Shown here piece by piece: positions 54,491-56,734 of a stretch of DNA of 64,000 nucleotides. A program made the position numbers and the translations under genes. Source of the stretch: a bacterium (GTDB taxonomy: Bacteria; Eisenbacteria; RBG-16-71-46; CAIMUX01); assembly GCA_030431975.1 (NCBI GenBank), contig JAUIHP010000004.1:252001-316000 (forward strand), written 5' to 3'. The notes beneath the pieces were generated by a model. It was not told where the DNA came from, ran no database searches, and saw only the letters and a list, made by a program, of their open reading frames with translations. Positions within the stretch are counted from its first letter, which is position 1; each line of letters starts with the position of its first letter.

Positions 54491-54559
54491 GTCGGGATGG
54501 ATCCGGCCACTCTGCCAAGAAAGCCGCGTTGCCGCCAACTCTCGCACCGGTGTTGCGGC

Positions 54560-54565
54560 TAGACT
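54560..54565 (+). promoter_or_regulatory. Possible -10 element of the selenoprotein gene
   Basis: TAGACT lies 42 bp before the start codon, the same hexamer and nearly the same distance as before the ATP-grasp operon. No good -35 is visible. Confidence 0.3.
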
Positions 54566-54606
54566 CTATCCGAAGGGGCGACTATCACCACATCTTCGGA
54601 GGAAGA

Positions 54607-55341
54607 ATGAACCGTCGAAACCTCATCCGTTCTGCACTTGCCATCGCTTTCAGCGGTGCGATCTGCGTCTCCGGCGCCCTCGATCTTGCGAGGGCCGACG
54701 ATGCCGCCGCGGAGTCCGAACCCATGGTCCTTCGGGTCTACAGCGACTACGTGTGACCGTGGTGCTATCTCAGTACCGGGCGTATTGAGCGGCTCCAGAA
54801 CGAATTCGAGATCGAAGTCGAACTCATCCACTTTCCGCTGCATCCGGACACTCCGATGGAAGGGGTGAAGCTGCTGGACCTCTTCGGCGGTCCTTCCGCG
54901 GCGCCCAGACTCGAGCAGTCGAAGAAGCGCCTGGCGGCGATCGCCGAGCAGGAAGGTCTTCCGATGGGCACGAAGCGGGAGATGACCTACAACAGTCGAC
55001 TGGCTCAGGAACTCGGCCTTTGGGCCGCCGAGCAAGGGAAGGGACCCGAATTCGACAACGCCACCTACCGTGCCTACTTCGTCGATGGAAGCAACGTCTC
55101 GGACGTGGATCTTCTGGTCGAGTTGGCGAAAGGTGTCGGTCTCGATCCGAAAGCGGCCAGGAAGGTCGTCGTCGAGCGGACGCACCAGGCGAAGGTCGAT
55201 GAACATTGGAACCGGTCCCGCCAGTCGGGTGTCAGCGCGGTTCCGACGTTCCAGATGGGCGGACAGCAGGTTGTCGGCGCGCAACCCTACGAGGTTCTGC
55301 GTCAGCTGGTGATCGAAGCCGGGGCCAAAACGCGGGGTTGA
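54607..55341 (+). CDS. Exported DsbA/FrnE-family selenoprotein (in-frame UGA = Sec, UPWC active site)
   Basis: A 244-residue thioredoxin-fold protein read through an in-frame TGA at 54754-54756 (codon 50). GGAGGAAG precedes ATG 54607. The signal sequence contains a twin Arg (MNRRNLIRSALAIAFSG) and ends near ARADDAAA. The mature part begins MVLRVYSDYV-U-PWCYLSTGRIERL, aligning with the YSDxxCPWCY active site of the DsbA/FrnE family with Sec in place of the first Cys. The frame then stays open for 195 codons with family features (FPLHPDTP, the cis-Pro segment VSAVPTFQMGG). A hairpin directly after the UGA fits a bacterial SECIS. It probably performs thiol/selenol redox chemistry in the periplasm. 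Pseudogene is unlikely given the intact frame and conserved motif. It converges on the di-heme oxidase gene with 7 bp between stops. Confidence 0.92.
54754..54789 (+). promoter_or_regulatory. Bacterial SECIS element for UGA recoding
   Basis: The UGA (54754-54756) is followed after 12 nt by an 8-bp stem, CUCAGUAC (54769-54776) with GUAUUGAG (54782-54789, one G-U pair), closing a five-base loop CGGGC. Distance from UGA to the loop (about 21 nt) and the G-rich apical loop fit the known SelB-recognised bacterial SECIS. Confidence 0.82.
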
Positions 55342-55348
55342 TCCTCGC

Positions 55349-56734
55349 CTACAACGACTCGAGAAACGCGAGCAGTGCCGCCCGGTCCCCGGCCGACATG
55401 GACCGGACGGCTTCGCGTGAGTCCTCTGCTTCACCCCCGTGCCACATCACCGCTTCCAGAATGGATTTGGCCCGCCCATCGTGAAGCAGGTTGTACTCGT
55501 TCTGAACCGTCCGGGTCAGTCCCAGTCCCCAAAGGGGTGTCGTTCGCCACTCCGAACCGGTGGCTTCATAGTCCGGCCGGCCGTCGGCCAGGTCCGGGCC
55601 CATGTCATGCAGAAGCATGTCGGTGTATGGACGAATCGTCTGGTGTGAGACGGAGGGGATTCCCTCCAGGTGACCCGTCTCGAGGCTCGGCGTGTGGCAG
55701 GTCGCGCACTGCGCTTCCTTGAAGAGTTGCTGTCCTCTTCGGACGACGGGGTCTTCCACGTTGCGGCGAGCGGGGACGGCCAGCGTCTGCGTGTAGAACG
55801 CCGCCAGCTCGACCGTTTCCATGTCGATTTCCGGATCGTCGGCGACGCCGTCCGCCTGGGGCTGCCCGATTGCGCTGTCCGTCGGAAAGATGGGATTGGT
55901 CACGCCCATGTCGTTGCGGTAGGCGGCGGCTGCCTGTTGGACCAATGTCGGCTGGTTGGCCTTCCAACCAAACCGTCCGAGTTCCATCGTTTGATTCCTG
56001 ACGTCGTAGACCCAGTTCGGTCGCCCGGAGATTCCATCGCCGTCGGCGTCGGCTTCGTCGGCCATGGCCAGGATGTCTTCTTCGGGGATGGCTTCCAGAA
56101 GCCCGCGTCCGAAGACCGGAAGCGCGATGCGCGGTGACGTCATGATGTCGGCGGGAAGGTCCGTGTACGCGTCCTCCAGCGCATAGGAAGGTCGATGCAG
56201 CGTGTAGGACTCTCCGTCGTCGAACTCTTCCACGATCTGCTCGTAGGTGACCCGGACACGAACTTCCGGTTGGACGCCGAACAACGACTTGTCACTCAGT
56301 TGGAGTCCGAAGCCCGGCGCGGGAACGGGACCGCCGTGCTCGTCCTTACCGGGAACACTGGCCCGGAGCAGCAGAGAACTCGGTTCGGTTCCCAGAAAAG
56401 GGCGTCCGCGGCCGTTGTTGACGTGACAGGCCGTGCAGGCATTGTTGTTGAAAACGGGCCCAAGCCCCGGATTGACCGGGGCTCCGGCGCCGACGAAGGC
56501 CGACTCGAAGGCCAGATCCCCATCGAGATGGCGGTCGAGGTCGGACACGTTGGGAGCGGGGAAGGTGTAGGCCTGATTCGTCGCGTTGAAGATCGTCGTT
56601 TCGCCTCCGGAGAGGTACTCGGACAGATCGACTTCCGGTGCCTCGGTCGGTGAGTCCTCCGAACAGCCGACCGAACAGGCGACCACGATGATCCCGACGG
56701 CCGGTACCAACGCGTCTTTCAGACGTGCTCTCAC
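55349..56734 (-). CDS. Di-heme oxidoreductase (DUF1111, thiol-oxidoreductase-like) lipoprotein
   Basis: A 461-residue lipoprotein (ACSVGC near residue 24) with two heme c sites, CTACH (about 98) and CATCH (about 342). Family blocks are GLGPVFNNNACTACHVNNGRG, GRPNWVYDVRN and FGWKANQPTLVQQAAAAY, then RTTPLWGLGLTRTV and LLHDGRAKSILEAVMWHGGEA near the end. This is the DUF1111/COG3488 family, which regularly accompanies imelysin and is implicated in iron acquisition. It is the last gene of the porin - imelysin - di-heme operon, 113 bp after the imelysin gene. The enzymatic reaction is not established. Confidence 0.9.
   Translation of the reverse strand: MRARLKDALVPAVGIIVVACSVGCSEDSPTEAPEVDLSEYLSGGETTIFNATNQAYTFPAPNVSDLDRHLDGDLAFESAFVGAGAPVNPGLGPVFNNNACTACHVNNGRGRPFLGTEPSSLLLRASVPGKDEHGGPVPAPGFGLQLSDKSLFGVQPEVRVRVTYEQIVEEFDDGESYTLHRPSYALEDAYTDLPADIMTSPRIALPVFGRGLLEAIPEEDILAMADEADADGDGISGRPNWVYDVRNQTMELGRFGWKANQPTLVQQAAAAYRNDMGVTNPIFPTDSAIGQPQADGVADDPEIDMETVELAAFYTQTLAVPARRNVEDPVVRRGQQLFKEAQCATCHTPSLETGHLEGIPSVSHQTIRPYTDMLLHDMGPDLADGRPDYEATGSEWRTTPLWGLGLTRTVQNEYNLLHDGRAKSILEAVMWHGGEAEDSREAVRSMSAGDRAALLAFLESL

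Follow-up and report, generated by a model that had tools for sequence, protein, structure and literature searches.

The stretch of DNA analysed here (the window, 64,000 nucleotides) very probably contains a real selenoprotein gene, whose in-frame TGA would be read by SelB under the direction of a hairpin. The product would be an exported FrnE-type DsbA protein with a UPWC active site, acting as a selenol/thiol-disulfide oxidoreductase in the periplasm. The gene, its selenocysteine (Sec) codon, the SECIS element, the Sec machinery of the genome and the predicted fold are all evident from the sequence.

Gene and protein

The gene is located on the plus strand, like all features described below unless indicated otherwise, and extends from position 54607 to 55341. 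Its 244 codons are open except for a single TGA at codon 50 (54754-54756), the final stop is likewise TGA (55339-55341), and a Shine-Dalgarno-like GGAGG (54598-54602) lies 4 nt upstream of the ATG. The product, 244 residues with one Sec, was assigned by translation, PF01323, PDB and AlphaFold/Foldseek comparisons. In the context YSDYV-U-PWCY, the TGA corresponds to the first active-site position of FrnE/DsbA, residue 1 of UPWC, where a first-pass annotation had placed it, and domain sequence extends to either side of it. The read-through product matched PF01323 (DSBA) from residue 42 to 233 (1.5e-34) with 119.9 bits against a curated cut-off of 25.6, a score that makes it a member of the DsbA family. 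Two further residues were invariant in an alignment of 18 sequences, the resolving Cys C53 of UPWC (54763-54765) and the cis-Pro P213 (55243-55245), the latter within AVPTF, the loop already recognized before. C53 is the sole Cys of the mature protein and none follows it.

The assignment to the FrnE type, also proposed at the outset, was borne out by sequence and structure comparisons. The nearest sequences with solved structures are FrnE of Deinococcus radiodurans (1.6e-25) and SCO1869 of Streptomyces, and the AlphaFold model has a mean pLDDT of 86, with low values confined to residues 1-34. In a Foldseek search with this model, the top five matches were FrnE structures, followed by SCO1869. 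The protein shares with the FrnE subfamily these nearest structures, the cis-Pro and a CP(W/F)C-type site with U in place of the first C. Two traits of the subfamily are absent: there is no Cys beyond C53 that could form a C-terminal CX4C, and instead of a cytoplasmic location a hydrophobic signal sequence is predicted, by hydropathy only, as for its counterparts of genomes G002 and G005. Because of the latter deviation, the protein is named FrnE-type rather than a typical FrnE.

The standard ORF list of this locus contains a 161-codon C-terminal ORF starting at 54856 and a 291-codon antisense ORF. It had been expected that annotation would split the gene into a 49-residue peptide and a truncated C-terminal ORF; the latter (161 aa) was indeed found, and that piece alone is listed. 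Standard gene finding loses the protein, as the gene would be split at the TGA and an antisense ORF occupies the same ground. The antisense ORF (54559-55434, minus strand) encloses the entire selenoprotein gene, and gene finders might pick it instead. An Rfam scan of the locus gave nothing relevant.

Putative signal sequence and probable export

The putative signal sequence MNRRNLIRSALAIAFSGAICVSGALDLARA (54607-54696), likely cut after ARA, was deduced from hydropathy and an AxA-like site. Its 12-residue hydropathy maximum is 2.36, and the TGA homologues of G002 and G005 have hydrophobic N-terminal segments with maxima of 2.82 and 1.97, respectively, so that each of the three Sec genes in the window's order has a signal-like segment. 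By hydropathy alone, export of the window protein is likely. As remarked in the first-pass annotation, this would be unusual: the FrnE subfamily has been described as cytoplasmic (PMC8945050), and most of the Cys homologues and Sec homologues outside the order that were inspected have start codons approximately 5-17 residues before the motif and lack a signal sequence.

It is conceivable, though unlikely, that the window protein is a cytoplasmic selenoprotein as well. An in-frame ATG at 54724, 10 codons before the TGA, could serve as the start and would resemble the starts of the Sec genes in other lineages and of cytoplasmic relatives. However, GGAGG at 54598 and the ATG at 54607 are well spaced, and a hydrophobic N-terminus is seen again in G002 and G005. 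Moreover, the window protein aligns with these two from its residue 10 onwards, which argues that the N-terminal extension is coding. There is about an even chance that these genes are a separate, exported branch of Sec-FrnE, in which a single bacterial order gained a signal sequence and so brought a formerly cytoplasmic selenoenzyme into the periplasm, placing a selenium-based disulfide enzyme beside VKOR-DsbA and DsbD.

SECIS element

The hairpin (54769-54789) consists of an 8-bp stem (54769-54776 paired with 54782-54789) and the loop CGGGC (54777-54781). It is present in the minimum-energy fold, and its loop begins 20 nt past the TGA. Bacterial SECIS elements are described by a loop of 3-9 nt, a G within the first two nucleotides of the loop, a spacing of 16-37 nt, a stem of 4-16 bp and an MFE of at most -7.5 (PMC13188914); the hairpin lies within these limits with its stem, loop and spacing and a value of -15.8 kcal/mol. 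Taken alone, the folding energy is unremarkable (z -1.15): 41% of synonymous recodings folded equally well, while just 0.84% contained an 8-bp stem that conformed to the rules. The real proof lies in comparative evidence rather than in folding energy.

All eight pairs are formed in each of the six Sec genes close enough for comparison (48 pair cells, all standard pairs), a count that excludes the distant Sec genes of G197 and G133, which have a different sequence at the hairpin site. Three pairs were changed on both sides in a compensatory manner, and none of 500 shuffles reached the covariation score. When the register was slid, only 23-46% of the positions in the six Sec genes paired, and in 80 Cys homologues the hairpin register yielded 2-7 of 8 pairs. 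The hairpin codons also show the strongest synonymous conservation of 186 windows, the codon being unchanged at 0.72 of identical residues against 0.38 elsewhere. The G267 protein is only ~34% identical, yet the 20 nt of the SECIS core of its gene, CTCAGTACCGGGCGTATTGA, match those of the window gene exactly. Longer folds of several orthologues favour other pairings over the hairpin. The stem and GGG-containing five-base loop initially seen at SECIS distance are therefore a conserved element with compensatory changes, unusually well kept across distant genomes, and this aids the finding of further members.

A Cys-FrnE gene at L028 (1018-1038) has kept CTCAATACCGGGCGCATCGAG, with the CGGGC loop and six of the eight pairs of the SECIS. 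This may be a fossil SECIS that outlasted a change from Sec to Cys. A scan of the window for frames with a TGA plus hairpin gave five other passing hairpins, all of which looked off-frame when judged by eye.

Sec and Cys at codon 50

A TGA at the position equivalent to codon 50 was detected in eight further genomes, two of the window's order and six others, and Cys occupies this position in 81 other homologues. The Cys/Sec alternation that had been suggested as a check is therefore evident. The homologues of the same order are 58% identical to the window protein (G002, and G005 over a partial gene), and three of the eight are distant (29-35% identity). In a sample of 290 genomes, 10 including the window's own possess a homologue at E <= 1e-25, nine with TGA and one with Cys, and in all nine Sec-type homologues the TGA falls at the active site. 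Cys was found in all of 80 further homologues from named genomes, mostly Alphaproteobacteria, whose Cys:Sec ratio is biased because the search motif contained Cys. Distant FrnE-like genes with a TGA at the active site (UPFC) occur in other lineages at L119 (G267), L120 (G197) and L121 (G133). Judged by these alignments, the gene shows what is expected of a bacterial selenoprotein, its in-frame UGA standing where homologues have Cys.

In a tree of 90 proteins, the window gene forms one supported clade with those of G002 and G005, and five Sec/Cys changes are needed; the deep order of this tree is unsure because of several long branches. A search for selA in five of the genomes gave matches above the cut-off in G070, G144 and G218. 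None was found in G002, and G005 yielded no more than a fragment of 24 bits where a contig ends; these two assemblies are incomplete (68% and 75%). A pattern scan of viral contigs for YVUPWCY returned four chance matches, none with an open frame, and in a tblastn search of plasmids every match was below 60% identity (best 34%).

Sec machinery of the genome

The presence of SelA, SelB, SelC and SelD had been predicted, and missing machinery had been named as a reason to reject the selenoprotein. All four were found in the source assembly (6.19 Mb, 97% complete): selA scored 494 bits and selD 373 bits, the latter carrying a TGA of its own in TCAGUASKL, and selB exceeded its cut-off and encodes the SelB beta-barrel domain. 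The tRNA-Sec exists in one clear copy (70.7 bits; ARAGORN agrees, anticodon TCA), while a second Rfam match above the cut-off (47.2 bits) is a tRNA-Ser according to ARAGORN. The selD gene (L019:1531-1533, G000:C52) is a selenoprotein gene too, with TCAG-U-ASKL, and standard annotation would cut it short.

As TGA is one base off TGC or TGT, it might be suspected that the TGA arose through an error in sequencing or a nonsense mutation of recent date, in an ordinary Cys-FrnE gene or a pseudogene. Such an origin is highly improbable in view of the full Sec machinery, the recurrence of the TGA in eight independent genomes, the conserved hairpin and the synonymous constraint. Translation of the TGA as tryptophan or by leaky suppression is hardly credible: the frame would be open under any sense reading, but 81 homologues have their catalytic Cys at this position, the genome has Sec machinery and the gene a SECIS, and the gene's own stop is TGA.

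Proposed function

For the selenoprotein, we infer the following course. With the hairpin (54769-54789) as guide, SelB and Sec-tRNA-Sec would decode the TGA at 54754 as selenocysteine, and the N-terminal signal sequence would take the protein across the inner membrane. By its family, the protein is most likely a thiol-disulfide oxidoreductase in which Sec makes the attack. In the periplasm it would most likely act as a fast selenol/thiol-disulfide oxidoreductase, as a reductase or isomerase and less likely as an oxidant. The selenolate of U50 would attack the disulfide of a substrate, C53 would resolve the mixed selenyl-sulfide, and a separate partner would reset the U50/C53 pair. For D. radiodurans FrnE, the C-terminal CX4C has been proposed to reset the active site (PMC8945050); since the window protein has no CX4C, an outside partner should be needed. 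Two candidates for this partner are encoded in the genome, a DsbD-like protein that combines DsbD_TM with thioredoxin and a protein in which VKOR is joined to DsbA-like domains. The VKOR protein (L122, G000:C18:74458-74808; 669 codons) has two DsbA-like domains, the second apparently without CxxC.

Genes for cytochrome c oxidase, MauG-type and DHOR di-haem proteins and imelysin are located nearby; between 52708 and 58047, two di-haem proteins (CCP_MauG, DHOR) and imelysin flank the selenoprotein gene. This neighbourhood is not conserved in G144, G070, G002, G218 and nine Cys loci, the sole shared neighbour being a MauG-like peroxidase near the homologue in L061. As the neighbours are, with this exception, not common to the relatives inspected, no substrate is claimed, and for the same reason the partner and the direction of the reaction are guesses.

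Comparison with known systems

The nine Sec-FrnE genes and their many close Cys relatives are a good system for testing the benefit of Sec to a DsbA-fold enzyme, and also for asking whether periplasmic relocation altered the role of the enzyme. DsbA-like selenoproteins were listed as early as 2006 (PMC1794560), a UxxC selenoprotein form of PF01323 followed in 2008 as 'DsbA 1' of GOS (PMC2398784), and a review of 2026 names the 'DsbA-like protein form 1' with UxxC (PMC13188914). The window protein has the Pfam family (pfam01323), the UxxC and a bacterial SECIS directly after the UGA in common with this group, but these lists (PMC2398784, PMC13188914) report no signal sequences, whereas one is predicted for the window protein. 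Sec-FrnE is also on record for Mamiellophyceae green algae (PMC6627142); likened by description, these are Sec-FrnE proteins as well, though of eukaryotic genes. The DsbG-like Rcas_1661 family (seleno)lipoprotein (NF041057) is likewise a family of selenoproteins of thioredoxin fold with UxxC, exported as its name lipoprotein implies. Membership in this family was rejected, as the match scored 49.8 bits where the cut-off is 190 and covered no more than the C-terminal part, and no lipobox was seen by eye in the window protein.

The closest relative of known structure is FrnE of D. radiodurans (DR_0659; PDB 5CNW, 5CO3, 5XWH), the best PDB sequence match (1.6e-25) with TM values of 0.76-0.81. Its CPWC is equivalent to the UPWC of the window protein, with Cys there and Sec here. 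It is cytoplasmic, in contrast to the window protein with its putative signal sequence, and has the C-terminal CX4C that the window protein lacks, a motif present in many but not all FrnE members (PMC8945050). The kind of protein is thus already known, as Sec in PF01323/DsbA-like proteins and in FrnE has been published, and the gene is a confirmed further example, while its exported branch could represent a novel form of Sec-FrnE.
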